DNA of 43,997 bases from a virus. The notes beneath the pieces were generated by a model. It saw only the letters and a list, made by a program, of their open reading frames with translations. It made no database searches and was not told where the DNA came from. This document shows, one piece after another, positions 17,537-27,314 of the stretch. The stretch lies in the IMG/VR virus record IMGVR_UViG_3300020438_000076, positions 1-43,997 of that record; one strand, 5' to 3'. How positions within the stretch are numbered: position 1 is the stretch's first letter; the number at the start of each line of letters is the position of its first letter. The translations under genes and the position numbers were made by a program.

Positions 17537-19096
17537 TTAGAATTGCAAGATGATCTTTACGTCTTCTTTCTGGGATGACGACCTTATAATAGAGGGTCTA
17601 TTGTCAACAAAGATAGTATTTCCAGAATATTTTTCTACTTCTGGTTGTGCAACACCAGAAGTAAAACTTTGACCCAGGTAATATGTCCTATTATTTATTA
17701 CAGTACTTACACCCGTAAACACTGTATCAATTCCAAGATTGACTGACCCACCATTAATTGTAAGTGATCCGCCAGCCAAAACACTAGCAGTGAATCTATA
17801 TGCCTCGAATCCATAAATTGAATTCGAGTTTAAAGTTCCATCAGTATTGAATCCAGAGTTTGTTCTGTCTTGCCAAAGTTTGAGAACACCAGTGGTTTGA
17901 TCGTAAGAAACGACTCTACCAACAGCTGTATGACCCATACCAACGGTTTGAGTAACATAATCATCTGGTGTAAATGTTGCTGAACTGTATCCAATTCCAC
18001 TCAATCTTAAAGCATAGGCCGCACTTGCTTTATCAAGATTCAAATTTGTTGAAGAATTGAAAGCCAATGGGTTTTCAATCATCCCAACTCTTGCAAACTG
18101 GTTACCAGTGATAAAATCTGGATTTTCAGTATCATTTTCAAATCTAGCATATGAAAGAACGTTATATGCTCCAAGTTCTCTATAAACATCATAACCATGA
18201 CCACCATTTGGTGGGATAATGACATTAAATATTGGTTTTGTTGACCCAGATGGAACTCCACCAGATTTAAGATTAACAGTTCCGAAGGTATATCCTTCTC
18301 CACCACTTGATACGGTTACAGATTCAACTTTTGAGTCGTTATTGATGACAACTGTAGCTTCTCCACCTACACCATCACCATCAATAGGTACCCTTGTATA
18401 AGTAACATTAGCAGTACCAAGACCAATACCACGATCTCTAACAGTTACAATCTTTAATTGACCACTTGTAGAAGCGTTTTGTCTTATTACAGCATCATCA
18501 GAACTAGGGTCATACCAGTTTGATGGAACTGGAATATAGTCAGTGGAGTCAAATTTGATCGCTTGACTTGGTTTTACCGTATAAAGGTACTTCCAGATGT
18601 AACCATCACCACTTGAACCAGCTGATCTTGGTTCCAAATCAGTAAATCCAGGTTCATCAATAGACGGACCACCTTGGAAGTTATTTTCAACACTTGCATT
18701 ATTATAAAGACATACATAAACTCTATAGTCAGAGTTCATTACATAGTAGTTTGCCGAATATATATCAAAAGCACCTGATGGTAGGGATGGGTTGTCCCTA
18801 CTGATGTCATTTCTCCACATGTCATAGGTCACACCAGATGCCCAGACATTTTTCCTAACAACTTGACTAACATCAGAAGCATTAATCTTCTTCAGAGCTA
18901 ACATTGTATCCCAATAGTCATTAGAGTCATTAAGACTATCTTTGGGAGATGGCGAATTAGTATCCCAATTAGACTGATATTCCGTAGCATTAGGTAAACC
19001 AATAAAAGCATAATAAGAATTTGTGGAAGATTGAACGCCCGACACAAAGTTCTTTGCATTCAAAATACGAAGTTGATCAGTTATAATCGCAGCCAT
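17537..19096 (-). CDS. gp8: Baseplate wedge subunit gp8
   Basis: Residues 160-192 (GSSGDGYIWKYLYTVKPS then STDYIPVPSNW) align by eye with PGDGYVWEYLFEIPPD and NEYIVVPWP of T4 gp8. The C-terminus, FVDNRPSIIRSSSQKEDVKI, aligns with YMENRPPIIMAMDQTEEINI. T4 gp8 (334 aa) is a wedge subunit that binds gp7. This copy is 519 residues: the segment about 210-285 contains one GSGY-type repeat (SSGGEGYTFGTVNL), and a further beta-rich insertion covers about 375-490. The gene follows a perfect late promoter and leads a unit with the 2540-aa protein. Confidence 0.95.
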   Translation of the reverse strand: MAAIITDQLRILNAKNFVSGVQSSTNSYYAFIGLPNATEYQSNWDTNSPSPKDSLNDSNDYWDTMLALKKINASDVSQVVRKNVWASGVTYDMWRNDISRDNPSLPSGAFDIYSANYYVMNSDYRVYVCLYNNASVENNFQGGPSIDEPGFTDLEPRSAGSSGDGYIWKYLYTVKPSQAIKFDSTDYIPVPSNWYDPSSDDAVIRQNASTSGQLKIVTVRDRGIGLGTANVTYTRVPIDGDGVGGEATVVINNDSKVESVTVSSGGEGYTFGTVNLKSGGVPSGSTKPIFNVIIPPNGGHGYDVYRELGAYNVLSYARFENDTENPDFITGNQFARVGMIENPLAFNSSTNLNLDKASAAYALRLSGIGYSSATFTPDDYVTQTVGMGHTAVGRVVSYDQTTGVLKLWQDRTNSGFNTDGTLNSNSIYGFEAYRFTASVLAGGSLTINGGSVNLGIDTVFTGVSTVINNRTYYLGQSFTSGVAQPEVEKYSGNTIFVDNRPSIIRSSSQKEDVKIILQF

Positions 19097-19132: not shown

Positions 19133-21136
19133 TTACTTTGTATATGATCTATTTGTTCTAGGGTATTTTACCCCAGAAACATCAGGATTTCTATTACCAA
19201 ATGTAGTTTGTTGGAGAGAACCACTTTCTAGTCTTTTCCTTTTTATAAAAAGGTATCTATTGTGGCTGGTTGAACCAAAAGTCTCCTTATCATCATTTTC
19301 AGATCCACTAGAACTCCCAACTTCAGGTAATGAATTTTCTTTTAAATATTGAAGAACTTCAGGAGTAGTGATATTAGGTTGATTTTGAGCAATACATGCT
19401 ATGACACCACAAACTTGTGGACTTGACATACTGGTTCCACTAATTGAAGCAAGGTAGTAATTAGAATCCCTTGAGTCAGCAACTACAGGACTATAACCTC
19501 CTTCACTAGTAGCACTGGATTGATCATAAACAGCAGAAATGATATCACTACCAGGACCCCAGATATCTACTCTTGATCCCCAATTGCTAAAGTTGGATTT
19601 ATATTCAGCAACTTTTGAACCAATTGATCCAACACAGATAACACCATCAGCAGATCCTGGTGATGAACCTCGTGAATGGTATGTTGTAGTGCTACCGTTA
19701 AGATAAGTATTGTTATAATCAGCATCACCTGAAACAGAACAATTCCAATAACTATTTCCAGCAGATGAAATGACAATTACACCGTCATCAATAGCATCTT
19801 GAATATCAGCATCTACTGCTGTCACTCTCAATGGAACCCTATACAAGTAACTACTAGCTGGAACAGGAATACCATTACTTTCTAATATTGCTTTTTTCTC
19901 AGAAGTAGTTCCACTAACAGAAGTAGTTGTCCCCCTATAAGTTACTGATGTAATATTCGAAAGGTAAGCACTATAAGTTCCTCGACTATAACCCCAACTA
20001 TGATTAGTGATTGTGGGATTTCTTCTGCCAGTTTCTGGGTTAATTGGTTTATTTTTATGAAAATGTCTCAAATAATCCCACAACTTTTCAGCCCAATCAC
20101 TTGTTCCTGATAACGTGGAAGAGAAAGCCATATTGTAAATATTAGCATCTCTTGCCCATCCTTGTGTATTGCCAGCAGCAGTTCCTGCTACATGAGATCC
20201 ATGATTAGTATTTGGTGAAGATCCACTAGAACTGTAAGAATAAGTACCGTTAGATCCATATCCTAATACTGAATTGTATTGATACCAGTTGAACTGAACA
20301 ACTCTAGATCCACCAGTTCCATCGGGGTTAACAGCGAATTCTACATGATTTGGGTTGACGTGTCCATCGACAATTACAACATCTACATTTTTTCCCGATA
20401 CATCTGTTACTATAGATTTATTTGTTATTCCAGATGTTGAATCACTACCCCAATTGCTTGTCTGAGCATTTACAGTAATTGTTCCGATCATACCAGAGTG
20501 AGCTCCACACTGATAATAATAGGTACCAGCAACATTGGGTGTCCAAGAAACGGTGCCACTTTGGGTTCCTTGATTTGTTGCTGCAGGATTGTTTACATTT
20601 GATCCCCCATTTGATACACGTATATAAAATGGATGACCACTTGCATTAACCACAAAATTAATAGTGTCACCAACACTGAGAGTAACAGATACATTATCAC
20701 CACTTACAGATCCATTTCTATCAGAACCACTTAAAGTATAAGCAGATGCTCCAGAGTTTGATACGTTAATACCATATGTCAATACAGAAGGGTATGATGT
20801 GTCACCTTTAATTACTCTATAAAGTCCCCAATTTTTATCATCACCAGCAAATGTTGATGTTGTTTTGTTAAAATCTCCAGTCTGTTCCCATAGATATTCA
20901 GGTACAATTCCTCTATCCTCTGCTGGACGTTCACAAGCAAGCACTCTAGGGTCTTTCCTAACCTCTACTGCTTCCTCTTCAGACAATGTGTAGTGGGTGT
21001 TACGACTTATCTCCCTTCTACTGACAAGATCAACTGCCCTGTCAGGAATATAAAGGGATCCTCCAGGAGTTTCTAGATCATCATATAAACTAACCAGGTC
21101 TTCTCTGTTTTTACAAGTTACTATGTATTCGTTCAT
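19133..21136 (-). CDS. Subtilisin-family (S8) serine protease with an embedded cupredoxin domain
   Basis: Residues 1-72 resemble an I9-type propeptide (MNEYIVTCKN ... VRKDPRVLACERP). Residues about 118-224 form a plastocyanin-like cupredoxin domain: strands around VSVTLSVGDTINFVV, then SGHPF with H168, and YYYQCGAHSGMIG with C210, H213 and M216, the complete type-1 copper ligand set. Residues 250-595 are the S8 domain: D257 in VVIVDGH, H312 in NHGSHVAG, N461 in SSAGN as the oxyanion residue, and S569 in SGTSMSSP. All catalytic residues are present, so it should be an active endopeptidase. There is no signal peptide, so it probably rides in the tail and may cut host surface protein, or process fibres during assembly (inference). 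The ATG overlaps the fibre gene stop (TAATG). Confidence 0.95.
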   Translation of the reverse strand: MNEYIVTCKNREDLVSLYDDLETPGGSLYIPDRAVDLVSRREISRNTHYTLSEEEAVEVRKDPRVLACERPAEDRGIVPEYLWEQTGDFNKTTSTFAGDDKNWGLYRVIKGDTSYPSVLTYGINVSNSGASAYTLSGSDRNGSVSGDNVSVTLSVGDTINFVVNASGHPFYIRVSNGGSNVNNPAATNQGTQSGTVSWTPNVAGTYYYQCGAHSGMIGTITVNAQTSNWGSDSTSGITNKSIVTDVSGKNVDVVIVDGHVNPNHVEFAVNPDGTGGSRVVQFNWYQYNSVLGYGSNGTYSYSSSGSSPNTNHGSHVAGTAAGNTQGWARDANIYNMAFSSTLSGTSDWAEKLWDYLRHFHKNKPINPETGRRNPTITNHSWGYSRGTYSAYLSNITSVTYRGTTTSVSGTTSEKKAILESNGIPVPASSYLYRVPLRVTAVDADIQDAIDDGVIVISSAGNSYWNCSVSGDADYNNTYLNGSTTTYHSRGSSPGSADGVICVGSIGSKVAEYKSNFSNWGSRVDIWGPGSDIISAVYDQSSATSEGGYSPVVADSRDSNYYLASISGTSMSSPQVCGVIACIAQNQPNITTPEVLQYLKENSLPEVGSSSGSENDDKETFGSTSHNRYLFIKRKRLESGSLQQTTFGNRNPDVSGVKYPRTNRSYTK

Positions 21137-22509
21137 TAGTCTTCCAACTTAACTACAGTTAAATCAACAGTAATTGCTGATGATGAGGTTTCATTATTTG
21201 TTACTGATAAGTAAATTGTACTTCCAGGGGTGCTATCGTTATTCCACCCAACAATACCAGGAGTCATTATAAAATTATTTGATCCACTAGATACTGAACG
21301 AGCTTCAGCAATTAAACCTGACCCTGGAAGTGGATCTTCTAGGTAAGATCTGTTAGCATCTGAAGTTCTGGATGTATCGTCAACATATAACCTCACCCAA
21401 GAAGCAGCACTGGTGCCAATTTTAAGAAGTCCATAGGATTTAAATCCAGTTATATTTAAATTAGTCGTTGCCCCAACTGATACAGATCCTGTAGTTGCTG
21501 TTACTACAGATCTTGAACTAAGTCCACCACCACCACCAACACCAGTAAGATTAGATCCATCACCATAATAGACCGCAGCAGATCCAGTGCTTGAACCAAA
21601 TGATTGACCAGAACCAACTGTAATATTACTACTTACATTTAAATTACCATTAATGTCTACACCATTTGAAGTAGTTGTAAGTCGTGTAACTTCTGCAGCC
21701 AGACCAGTAGAATAGTATAACGAGAGTCCACCTGTAGTTACAGTATTAGTGTTTGTTTTTAATAAAATAGATCCTTGATAACTCGTGATTCTGACATCAC
21801 CAGCAGCGCGCTGAACAATTTTACCACCAGTAAATGTATTCTGGAATGTTACATCTTGTGATCCACTAGGCGAAATACTAAAGGATCTACCTTCGAGTGT
21901 TATTGAATCGCTTTTCGACTCTCCTGTGATTTTTACACCACTAGTAGTGGTTTCAAGTTTTTCTGATCCTTGACCATATAGTGTAGTATATTGAGAAGCA
22001 CCTGTACCACCAGCAAGAATTGCAGAAGTAATACCAAGATTTACTGAAAATGCACTTCCATTCGTTCGTAAATCAAGACTATTTGAAGATCTGATTGTAT
22101 TACCTACACCAGCAGCACCAGTTTCAACCTGAAGAGTCGCTGGAGTATTTGAACTTGGATTGATGAAAAAAGCGTTTTGGAAAGTAGAAATACCAGACAC
22201 ATTCAGTCCACCACCAAAAGTAAGATTAGTATTAGTGGTAGCACCTCTACCAGTTACAGATGAGAGAGTGTCTGATTCTGATGTTAGATAACTAGAAAGA
22301 TCTGGTGGTGTATAAGAGAAGGCACCGCTTGAGTTGTCATAAGAAAGTGCTGCAGTCCCTACAGCACTTTGTGTTACAGATAGATTTGTAAGTCCGATAC
22401 CAGAACTAGGAGGAAGAGATGCCCATGAAGATCCATTCCACTCCCAAGTAATGTTTGATGCAGTGTATTGTTGTCCAACTGTAGGATTGGATGGAAATGA
22501 AATAGCCAT
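21136..22509 (-). CDS. 457-aa tail-fibre-like protein
   Basis: The N-terminus (FPSNPTVGQQYTASNITWEW then NGSSW) is a common start of phage fibre proteins. The middle (residues about 90-330) is a Ser/Thr/Gly-rich beta-repeat shaft with LNVSGISTFQNAFF, IRSSNSLDLRTNGSAFS and YYGDGSNLTGVGGGGG. The last ~115 residues form a distinct domain, with LNITGFKSYGLLKIGTSAAS, WVRLYVDDTSR and TPGIVGWNND. That domain recurs at the end of the 703-aa fibre. It is probably a tail fibre or adhesin whose C-terminal domain binds the host; the role is inferred from architecture. It is cotranscribed and translationally coupled with the downstream protease. Confidence 0.88.
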   Translation of the reverse strand: MAISFPSNPTVGQQYTASNITWEWNGSSWASLPPSSGIGLTNLSVTQSAVGTAALSYDNSSGAFSYTPPDLSSYLTSESDTLSSVTGRGATTNTNLTFGGGLNVSGISTFQNAFFINPSSNTPATLQVETGAAGVGNTIRSSNSLDLRTNGSAFSVNLGITSAILAGGTGASQYTTLYGQGSEKLETTTSGVKITGESKSDSITLEGRSFSISPSGSQDVTFQNTFTGGKIVQRAAGDVRITSYQGSILLKTNTNTVTTGGLSLYYSTGLAAEVTRLTTTSNGVDINGNLNVSSNITVGSGQSFGSSTGSAAVYYGDGSNLTGVGGGGGLSSRSVVTATTGSVSVGATTNLNITGFKSYGLLKIGTSAASWVRLYVDDTSRTSDANRSYLEDPLPGSGLIAEARSVSSGSNNFIMTPGIVGWNNDSTPGSTIYLSVTNNETSSSAITVDLTVVKLED

Positions 22510-25202: not shown

Positions 25203-27314
25203 TTATTCTCCGATCTGTAGTGCTGTTAGTGTTACGGTAACTGTGGATGTTGACCCACTTCTATTTGTTACTGAAAGATAAATTGTAGTTGTTCTAGGAC
25301 TATCATTATTGAATCCCATAATACCAGGAGTAATTAATATAGATTCTGCTGTAGTAGTTCTTACTTCAGCAATAACACCACTACCAGGAGAAGGATCTGC
25401 TCCTTCACTTCTAGTTTGATCGGCATCTCTGGAAGTATCATCGGTGTATACTCTGACCCATGCCGCTGCGTCAGTTTCAATCTTAAATAATGAATACGCT
25501 TTATACCCTGTAATATTTAGTTCTGCGGTTGCGTCATCAGCGAGTGATGATGTAGTACCTGTAAGATCTTGAATCTGTGGTACACTAGAGCCTCCTGTAG
25601 CAGTAAGAACACCATTACCATCAATAGATAACCCAGAACCAATTTTAATGCCACCCAGAGTTCCTGATGATGCAATTGGTAGTGAATATCCACCGGGAGC
25701 AGCAGTGATATTACCATTAGCATCTAGTGTGATTGTAGTACCATCAGGAATTACACCACCAAGTGTAGATGTTGTAGCAGCAGGTAATGTATATGCAGAT
25801 GGAATAGATGGTTTGTTTAGGATTTGTGCTAATCCAGTAGTAGCATTCCAATCTGAGTTAACTGGATTAGTACTATTAATTGTAACTCTTTTATTAGAAC
25901 CATCCCAACTAATATCAGTTCCGTTGCTTCCTGTAAATTCAATAGTATCATCATTATTTGAAGCATCACGCAATGTAAGAATTGCATTGTTACTAGTTGT
26001 GTTTGAACCAAGTAAATCGTATGTAGTGCCTCCACCACCACCGCCACCACCAGTTACTACAGCGTCAATACTGTTATTGCTGTCATTATATGTAAAATTA
26101 ATGCCTGTATGAGTTCCATTAGCGAATAGTTGAGCCGTGGCATCTTGTGAATCTTCACCTGTAAAAGATCCTCCTCCACCACCAGAAGGTGCTCTAAATG
26201 TGAGAGTATTGTCATCGGTATATTCTACCGTAAGACCATCTGCACCAGCAAACGTAATCTCATCAGTAGTTCCAGCATTATCAGTTAATACTAATTTTGA
26301 ATTTGCATTTCCACTAGTACTCCCTGCAGAAATTGTATATGTAGAGTTTGCAATGTTCGCAGTCAAATCAAATTGAATCTCATCACCAGAATCACTAATT
26401 GCTAGTCCATTTCCTGCAACTAAAACAATTTGATCTGTAGTGCCGCCAGAATCTTCAAGTCTAATTATTTTTCTTGCATTATTCTCTGACGAAGTCCCTG
26501 CAGTGTAATCAAGAGCATTAATATTATAAGTAAGTTGACTATTACCTAAAAGTGTTGCAAAATCTGAAGACGTGGTACTATTTGTAGTTACCAATCTTTG
26601 ACTGGTCCAACTTACTCCATTGGAGTAATACATTACTCCAGTATCATCTGCATATGCAAATTTACTTTTTGAATTTGATACTATTGGGAATGACGATACA
26701 TCAGTATACAAAATTGATGAACCAGAACCAACTCCACCAGCGACAGTAATTGTTTTAGTTGATCCATTTCCTGATGCAACTACACCATCACCAACAAAAT
26801 TTAGTGAAGTTGCATTTGTAGGTAATGAAACACCTTCATCTCGAATATCGATTCCAGAAATACCTCCACCTCCACCTCCAGAGGTTCCACCAGCAGGGTT
26901 AGAATCTACCCAGACATTGGAGTAATAAACCTTCAACCTACCAGCATCACTCTCCCACCATAGATCACCTGAGTTGGGACTTGATGGTGGATTATCAGAA
27001 ATTGTTACATTAGCACCAGATGCTTGTCCAGTAATGGTTACATTACCAGTTGAACCACTCAATGATATATTGTCGCCAGCAGTTAGAGAAGTAACAACAC
27101 CAGAAACGGATATGGTTGCATTATCAGCTGAACCACTCAATGATATATTGTCGCCAGCAGTTAAAGAAGTAACAACACCAGAAAGGGTTGTTCCATCTCC
27201 AAGAAGATTATACAACTCATCAAAGTTGCTATTGATTTTAGTTGCTCCTGAGAGCAAACTATCCCCAGTACCATCATTAGGAGTTGTTCCTGTAGATATT
27301 CCTAGTCTAGACAT
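25203..27314 (-). CDS. 703-aa tail-fibre-like protein
   Basis: The N-terminus, TPNDGTGDSLLSGATKINSN followed by FDELY, is a common phage fibre attachment motif. Residues 45-70 and 71-96 are two nearly identical copies of a 26-residue unit, SGVVTSLTAGDNISLSGS plus a variable end. A Gly-rich linker near 150 and several beta repeats such as GTTDEITFAGADGLTVEYT form the shaft. The last ~115 residues (ITGYKAYSLFKIETDAAAWV, YTDDTSR, TPGIMGFNND) are paralogous to the end of the 457-aa fibre. It is probably a tail fibre with a C-terminal receptor-binding or trimer-tip domain (inference). It is the first gene after gp7, behind its own late promoter. Confidence 0.88.
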   Translation of the reverse strand: MSRLGISTGTTPNDGTGDSLLSGATKINSNFDELYNLLGDGTTLSGVVTSLTAGDNISLSGSADNATISVSGVVTSLTAGDNISLSGSTGNVTITGQASGANVTISDNPPSSPNSGDLWWESDAGRLKVYYSNVWVDSNPAGGTSGGGGGGISGIDIRDEGVSLPTNATSLNFVGDGVVASGNGSTKTITVAGGVGSGSSILYTDVSSFPIVSNSKSKFAYADDTGVMYYSNGVSWTSQRLVTTNSTTSSDFATLLGNSQLTYNINALDYTAGTSSENNARKIIRLEDSGGTTDQIVLVAGNGLAISDSGDEIQFDLTANIANSTYTISAGSTSGNANSKLVLTDNAGTTDEITFAGADGLTVEYTDDNTLTFRAPSGGGGGSFTGEDSQDATAQLFANGTHTGINFTYNDSNNSIDAVVTGGGGGGGGTTYDLLGSNTTSNNAILTLRDASNNDDTIEFTGSNGTDISWDGSNKRVTINSTNPVNSDWNATTGLAQILNKPSIPSAYTLPAATTSTLGGVIPDGTTITLDANGNITAAPGGYSLPIASSGTLGGIKIGSGLSIDGNGVLTATGGSSVPQIQDLTGTTSSLADDATAELNITGYKAYSLFKIETDAAAWVRVYTDDTSRDADQTRSEGADPSPGSGVIAEVRTTTAESILITPGIMGFNNDSPRTTTIYLSVTNRSGSTSTVTVTLTALQIGE
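27051..27184 (-). repeat. 56-bp tandem direct repeat inside the 703-aa fibre gene
   Basis: Bases 27051-27106 and 27129-27184 match at 55 of 56 positions, with a period of 78 bp (26 codons). They encode two SGVVTSLTAGDNISLSGS units. Identity at the DNA level points to recent duplication or gene conversion. Confidence 0.9.

Follow-up and report, generated by a model that had tools for sequence, protein, structure and literature searches.

A subtilase with an inserted cupredoxin domain in a T4-like tail block

The window (the whole 43,997-nt stretch of viral DNA analysed here) contains a T4-like tail block with the gene order 703-aa gp9/10-like gene, 799-aa gene, 88-aa gene, 457-aa fibre-like gene, subtilase and gp8-like wedge gene. 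The subtilase reading frame, to which a first-pass annotation had drawn attention without giving its strand, is real. It encodes 667 aa on the minus strand, from position 21136 down to 19133, and its start codon overlaps the stop codon of the upstream gene (22509-21136) in the sequence TAATG, as that annotation had noted. The features referred to below are listed here with the evidence for each.

19133..21136, minus strand: structural-region subtilase with inserted cupredoxin, 667 aa (open reading frame list)
20912..21136, minus strand: propeptide-like N-terminal domain, residues ~1-75 (beta-alpha-beta-beta-alpha-beta order; pLDDT 72-86 over residues 1-70)
20465..20800, minus strand: cupredoxin (type-1 copper) domain, residues ~113-224, an in-frame 336-nt segment (AlphaFold2, Foldseek, sister alleles)
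20633..20635, minus strand: H168, first copper ligand, in an H-P-F motif (alignments, residue check)
20489..20509, minus strand: copper ligand loop C210-x2-H213-x2-M216 (alignments, residue check)
19217..20461, minus strand: peptidase S8 catalytic region, residues 226-640, with D257/H312/N461/S569 (Pfam, residue check)
21136..22509, minus strand: coupled upstream fibre-like gene, 457 aa, without cupredoxin (PHROGs, relatives' operons)
25203..27314, minus strand: gene with gp9/10-like N-terminus, 703 aa, without cupredoxin (Pfam, relatives' operons)
17537..19096, minus strand: gp8-like baseplate wedge gene, 519 aa, downstream of the subtilase (Pfam, PHROGs)

Residues D257, H312, N461 and S569 of the S8 domain and the putative copper ligands H168, C210, H213 and M216 are present in the window translation at the positions first proposed. 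The Asp/His/Ser triad of peptidase S8 and the oxyanion Asn were all found, and Pfam matched the S8 family at 247-602 (E 5.7e-24; 85.4 bits against a cut-off of 21.8; the query began at residue 2, and one must be added to Pfam match numbers for protein numbering). By its residues and Pfam score the protein is a peptidase S8 with predicted proteolytic activity. The N-terminal ~75 residues, whose order of strands and helices resembles that of I9 propeptides, gave no Pfam match. An AlphaFold2 model of residues 1-647 (12 alignment rows) was poor (pLDDT 53.3, pTM 0.58), and only its first ~75 residues were used. Among PHROGs the subtilase matched phrog_9158, a family of unknown function, through its S8 part (E 2.1e-126). 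The C-terminal part of the phrog_9158 profile is itself a cupredoxin, and a Prochlorococcus cupredoxin matches positions 584-695 of its 696.

The two fibre-like genes of the window (21136-22509 and 25203-27314) have a C-terminal part of ~120 aa in common at about 51% identity (phrog_15343/9627), as if it had been copied between them.

The inserted domain has a cupredoxin fold and a complete type-1 ligand set

Three routes were used to classify the inserted domain. As a single sequence, it matched PF00127 (Copper-bind) at 147-222 of the query from residue 2 with E 0.0017; at 19.1 bits the match stays under the gathering score (21.2), and Pfam by itself would miss the cupredoxin. Relatives pass that score, including the P-SSM2 tail spike (23.3 bits) and locus L239 (34.4 bits). 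A phmmer search of the PDB with the domain alone found plastocyanin 1b3i (E 3.9e-5) and pseudoazurin 3tu6 (E 3.4e-4), and in these alignments the Cys, the second His and the Met fall on copper ligands. A profile of 80 family members matched 28 PDB sequences at E<=0.001, all of them named plastocyanin, amicyanin, pseudoazurin or Cu nitrite reductase, and the best alignment placed 4/4 copper ligands.

The structure prediction that the first-pass annotation had suggested gave a confident model (AlphaFold2, 80-row alignment: pLDDT 95.3, pTM 0.88, nine strands), which matches cupredoxins in Foldseek and VIA-align. The top VIA-align match was the N-terminal part of Hyphomicrobium nitrite reductase 2dv6 (Z 11.6, rmsd 1.9, 95 residues). 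Rusticyanin 2cal and small laccases came next, tied at Z 9.5-9.9. Foldseek TM-scores by query length were moderate (0.43-0.58 among the 50 matches listed). The VIA-align list is a re-scoring of Foldseek matches; plastocyanins are absent from the 50 VIA-align rows listed yet present in the Foldseek list, so their absence excludes nothing. In a viral structure library, ranks 1-17 had the same fold at 25-64% identity, and the matches include ACG-2014e and ACG-2014h proteins named 'Peptidase S8/S53', gp9-type connectors and tail fibres. Against PHROGs, the cupredoxin part matched phrog_27200, two tail families and, weakly, PetE (phrog_515, E 2.2e-4). By single sequence, profile and model alike, the domain is a cupredoxin, and copper binding is predicted. 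The initial description, of a cupredoxin fold (here a modelled one) with its type-1 ligands intact, fused to a complete S8 domain within a T4-like tail operon, therefore stands.

The ligand loop has the spacing C-x2-H-x2-M, which is that of amicyanin, and PDB amicyanins match the family profile. The first ligand is followed by P-F in the window (H-P-F), whereas the best-aligned plastocyanin has H-N. An identification as plastocyanin (PetE) was rejected; the loop is not C-x2-H-x4-M, and the domain is fused rather than a stand-alone soluble carrier.

Two weak matches are recorded here in their own right. Giant-virus entries named 'beta-sandwich' or 'Blue type 1 copper protein' (Marseillevirus, Pithovirus, Fadolivirus) weakly match the domain model. 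Residues 345-392 of a gp9-type module protein (L004:3421-4998) gave a weak match to PF25489, At5g54830-like (E 0.018, under the cut-off).

Sister alleles of the subtilase lack exactly this domain

Eight IMG/VR loci (L001-L008) covered the window subtilase end to end. L001 and L002 (99.5 and 99.7% nucleotide identity to the window) have the cupredoxin domain. The other six, L003-L008 (96.3, 90.2, 95.8, 95.8, 86.0 and 91.7%), are without it, with flanks and frame intact. The segment absent from them is exactly 336 nt, in frame, with a GC content of 0.386, compared with 0.393 before it and 0.370 after it. In the alignment, 9 nt of the short alleles fall inside the gap, at its middle; an insert in one piece is the simpler reading. 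Presence and absence alone do not separate gain from loss, and gain of the module is the simpler reading, since the majority of close relatives lack it.

The insert is seated after K-N-W-G-L-Y-R-V-I-x-G-D and before S-N-W-G-S-D, near the pro/mature boundary. The first motif resembles the mature N-terminus of proteinase K-type enzymes; a profile alignment matched the second W-G (SNWGSD), and not KNWGLYRVIxGD, as the mature N-terminus. The module would accordingly belong either to the propeptide linker or to the mature enzyme. The protease of L175 is 60% identical to that of the window in the S8 part and 89% in the module. Its dS from the window is 0.55 in the module (residues 113-225), 1.40 in S8 and 2.2 in the propeptide, values above 1 being only rough. 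The lower module dS suggests that the module there has its own, more recent history, by exchange or conversion.

The module occupies other genes in related operons

The window has a single module copy, seated in the subtilase as in L001 and L002. In L004 and L007, the gene directly upstream of the subtilase contains the last 128 aa of the window 457-aa gene (72% identity) and a cupredoxin. This gene encodes 526 aa in L004, where it is the sole gene between the homologue of the window 4,008-aa gene and the subtilase, and it starts like the window 703-aa gene and ends like the 457-aa gene; in L007 the end of this gene, the part visible there, also has the module. L005 and L006 bear it in a 993-aa gene two genes upstream of the subtilase, which starts with the first ~198 aa of the window 703-aa gene (77%). 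No module was found in the genes seen in L008. These upstream-gene copies are diverged gp9- or fibre-type modules and not the window copy relocated.

Whole-record searches of ten close-relative records found one copy each in L001 (35.5 kb), L004 (77.6 kb), L005 (8.3 kb), L007 (17.4 kb) and L287 (64.8 kb) and two each in L006 (89.3 kb) and L176 (24.2 kb); three of the ten, all fragments, had none (L003, 6.0 kb; L008, 16.3 kb; L290, 18.3 kb). A wider survey covered the best 80 of 598 confirmed subtilase candidates, so that its rates concern close relatives (L175 and L176 lie outside the 80). Eight of these 80 loci, which were found with the subtilase alone, have the module in the protease gene, at the N-terminal side in 2 (both of the window lineage), the C-terminal side in 5 and overlapping the end of the catalytic part in 1. 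Another 11/80 have it only in a neighbouring gene, and 61/80 are without it in the gene or the fetched flanks.

The module recurs on cyanophage tail proteins

A tblastn search with the domain (E<=0.01) picked out 139 phage records in a set of 50,697. To go by the names, almost all are cyanophages (Synechococcus 110, Prochlorococcus 17, Cyanophage 7, Marine 3, Actinomycetia 1, Phage 1). A gp9-like connector carries the module at its C-terminus in S-RIM2, P-SSM4, P-RSM6, P-TIM68, Syn30 and S-RIM8. A second, more diverged copy lies in the wedge gene after gp9 in S-RIM2, P-SSM4, Syn30 and S-RIM8; it was found with an iterated profile (38-52 bits) and missed the E<=0.001 threshold when whole records were searched. 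P-SSM2 has the module in its tail spike (two copies) and a fibre, and S-CAM1 in a fibre. Further carriers are the podoviruses P-SCSP2 and P-GSP1 and one actinophage. Carriers were named tail proteins from annotation, PHROG similarity and gene order, and their virion status rests on operon context and PHROG tail categories.

Among subtilases, the module is at the C-terminus in S-H9-1, ACG-2014e and AG-345-P14 and inside the stretch matched by Pfam S8 in L015. A 1,842-aa protein of P-HM1 has it on each side of the S8 domain (Pfam E 5.7e-28). P-HM2 and MED4-213 encode relatives of this protein, their S8 assignment resting on jackhmmer and likeness to P-HM1, and these ~1,850-aa S8 proteins hold two or three copies. 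A further copy with the ligands HCHQ occurs in eight contigs. We also observed ~1,970-aa phage proteins (L194, L207, L232, L240, L247) with an S8-like region between cupredoxins and a further Gln-axial copy (W-C-H-x-H-T-G-Q-G). Since jackhmmer S8 matches can drift in Ser/Thr/Gly-rich proteins, Pfam was used for L201, L189, L015, L239, L013 and S-H9-1. The jackhmmer label of L012 as an S8 protein was dropped, there being no Pfam S8 match, and a Pfam scan of six of the other tail-protein carriers gave no S8 match.

At E<=0.001 the module was absent from S-PM2, P-SSP7, S-H38, S-CREM1 and S-T4, 5 of 22 whole records; this is no rate, because most of the 22 were chosen for having matches. A search of S8 proteins in other phages, as first suggested, thus did find the fusion, at other positions of the same subtilase family. 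On these sequences the module is best described as a portable part of cyanophage tail proteins and not as part of the protease machinery. The cupredoxin-protease fusion first described is real but not protease-specific, since six sister alleles are without the domain and it is also on other tail proteins. PHROGs and the viral structure library already contain such fusions, filed under S8 or tail names or as families without a known function.

The copper ligands are among the most constant residues

To limit circularity, copies were sorted by way of discovery, three of the sets not being selected on the ligands. Hits that did not span model positions 30-98 were dropped (1/100, 44/81, 2/19 and 8/33 in sets A-D), and near-duplicates were then removed by shared 4-mers. 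Where the search motif lay 21-29 residues before the first ligand, all 52 of the 52 non-redundant copies were HCHM. Bystander copies in the same loci were HCHM in 15/22 and HCHQ in 5/22, with one HSSV and one DSRM. Loci found by the protease alone gave 13/14 HCHM and one AGIL, again non-redundant, and bystanders in loci found by the ligand motif gave 22/23 HCHM and 1/23 HCHE. The ligand-loss copies (HSSV, DSRM, AGIL) make up 3/88 non-redundant copies of sets A-C, a count that may be too low because the profile used for detection had been built from copies with ligands, and loci were accepted on their similarity to the window domain. The losses are real, several being in proteins with other intact copies, and HNTM and AAGM copies are further cases. 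When partial and redundant sequences were kept, 109 distinct copies comprised 92 HCHM, 8 HCHQ, 1 HCHL, 3 HNTM and 5 others or fragments.

Ranked by entropy among 107 columns in the 86 combined non-redundant copies of sets A-C, H168 was 2nd, C210 4th (tied with P169), H213 5th and M216 9th. The 80-row alignment (28-90% identity to the window), part of whose rows were found through the ligand motif, has six invariant columns: H, P, Y, C, H and M. Free loss of the ligands with the fold kept, named in the first-pass annotation as what would speak against it, is not the pattern found. By these counts the ligands are under selection, and their conservation is strong whatever the carrier. A Gln axial ligand is that of stellacyanin and Leu that of some laccases; replacement of the axial Met by Gln, Leu or Glu suggests tuning.

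Kinship with bacterial and host cupredoxins

The module has cellular relatives of two kinds: domains at the C-terminus of marine Flavobacteriaceae/Bacteroidetes proteins, and a small Prochlorococcus cupredoxin that looks secreted and is 46-50% identical in this domain. The latter occurs in Prochlorococcus single-cell genomes (L271-L280, e.g. L274:3938-4333) as a ~140-aa protein with a signal peptide-like start and the loop C-x2-H-x4-M, and it is distinct from plastocyanin. Some 'genome' matches look like phage, among them a 189-kb Prochlorococcus contig, equal in size to an IMG/VR virus record, and Gammaproteobacteria contigs. Of the 97 inner branches in a quick tree of 100 domains (107 columns), 40 stayed open. 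In this tree the gp9-type copies and their kin form a group (support 97). A phage subtilase-fused copy, L026, is sister to the Prochlorococcus cupredoxin (SH-aLRT 99) and has the same C-x2-H-x4-M loop, and the window copy clusters with L176 and L087 (support 82), apart from the host protein.

A probable portable copper module in the host-contact apparatus

We think it probable that the domain is a portable type-1 copper module of cyanophage peripheral baseplate and tail-fibre proteins, inserted here in a structural subtilase. What the sequences themselves provide is the fold, as a model, together with the ligand set, its conservation, the in-frame presence or absence and the recurrence on many carriers. 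Such a module would bind copper, would sit in the virion, displayed on the tail, and may act, without involving the protease, on the cell surface or in the periplasm of the host while the phage attaches or enters; one example of a route would be contact with some component of the host envelope that depends on redox state or copper. The recurrence of a copper-type domain on many tail proteins of cyanobacterial viruses suggests that the particles of these viruses may carry copper. A bolder version, which we put forward as a rather doubtful possibility, is that cyanophages are blue-copper particles, with redox sites of tuned axial ligand (Met, Gln, Leu) in exchangeable seats at the tail tip. These sites would take part in contact with oxygen-producing hosts, or in triggering of the tail on them, at a step that depends on redox state or copper.

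The module could instead be a passive building block, a stable beta-sandwich spacer or decoration in which the metal is irrelevant or a structural staple. Modular insertion at many places is typical of tail decoration domains and is seen here, along with a few copies that have lost the ligands. However, even copies with as little as 28% identity keep the ligands, the Met among them, and axial changes are mostly to Gln, with single cases of Leu and Glu, while the Cys and both His stay; Gln, Leu and Glu are known or engineered type-1 axial residues. An inert spacer, one of the roles first suggested, is disfavoured by ligand conservation; a copper site serving as a structural staple would still fit, and we regard the passive reading as a whole as unlikely.

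Similarly unlikely is a Trojan horse or mimic, the latter also among the roles first suggested, in which the module, by analogy, would resemble host periplasmic or surface copper proteins and dock on their partner or uptake receptor. We know of no receptor for such a module. The Prochlorococcus cupredoxin resembles the module, and L026 is its sister, which fits this reading; the window copy, however, falls among other phage copies. As a parallel, the part of PMC11705849 consulted takes up HxH motifs that bind iron in the tail fibres of phages.

Copper gating of the protease, also first suggested, would have the cupredoxin by the propeptide control activation or activity, for example after a copper or redox change in the host periplasm. 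The seat near the pro/mature boundary, the intact S8 residues and the occurrence of modules before, after and inside the S8 domain of the family, on both sides in P-HM1-type proteins, are consistent with it. Yet six alleles (86-96% DNA identity) have the same propeptide and catalytic parts without the module, their activity being judged from open frames and active-site residues. The protease gene has a module in only 8 of the best 80 of 598 relatives, its position relative to the active site varies, and the six scanned carriers are without an S8 match. Module-less alleles, other carriers and other positions therefore speak against gating, which we consider improbable.

Finally, a redox trigger for light-dependent adsorption, with the copper site sensing or accepting electrons from the illuminated host, is very improbable and the link is not supported, because S-PM2, whose adsorption is reportedly light-dependent (Jia et al. 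2010), has no module match at E<=0.001. P-HM2 adsorption was estimated lower in the dark and P-SSP7 gave no evidence of light dependence in the part of PMC7112961 consulted, and P-HM2 has three module matches and P-SSP7 none (whole-record search, E<=0.001), but two phages that differ in everything else make no correlation. Both the mimic and the light trigger are special cases of a portable copper module.

Cyanophages are among the most abundant ocean viruses, and copper is toxic to picocyanobacteria. If the sites hold copper, virions would be copper carriers, and redox state or copper could influence attachment. The question can be put to the test through a natural experiment, the sister alleles that have or lack the module.

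Comparison with known systems

Each ingredient of the cupredoxin-tail-protein fusion is a known domain. We found no report of a blue-copper module recurrent on tail proteins in the open-access literature, searched by titles and starts of abstracts (supplementary virion proteomes lie outside). Two candidate reports of copper in tail fibres were set aside: in the consulted parts, the copper of PMC10665884 is that of an EM grid, and the metal of PMC11705849 is iron. A metal-redox domain normally of photosynthesis or respiration appears here as a recurrent, mobile part of what is probably the host-contact apparatus of cyanophages.

The window domain has the fold and the full His/Cys/His/Met set of plastocyanin, pseudoazurin, amicyanin, rusticyanin and the N-terminal domain of three-domain Cu nitrite reductase (2dv6, 6tfo). 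These cupredoxins are soluble electron carriers or oxidase domains, whereas this one belongs to a tail-region protease, and to tail proteins, of phages. The marine Flavobacteriaceae/Bacteroidetes multidomain proteins likewise have a C-terminal cupredoxin, 45-62% identical in the domain, but they are cellular and lipoprotein-like, and the window protein is a phage protein. Among the cyanophage structural-region subtilases (phrog_9158), the module precedes the catalytic core in the window lineage and lies C-terminal to it in S-H9-1 and ACG-2014e.

Plastocyanin is already known as a cyanophage metabolic gene (PMC3037559). This petE likewise gives cyanophages a blue-copper protein, described in the consulted part of that paper as an electron transport gene and not as a part of the virion. 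It is a separate small gene (324 nt, with C-x2-H-x4-M, in S-T4), to which the window module is only weakly similar. Iron HxH 'Trojan horse' tail fibres, as far as described in the part of PMC11705849 consulted, likewise place metal sites in phage tail proteins, in an octahedral His site; the window module differs in predicted metal and fold, and its site is of the redox type.
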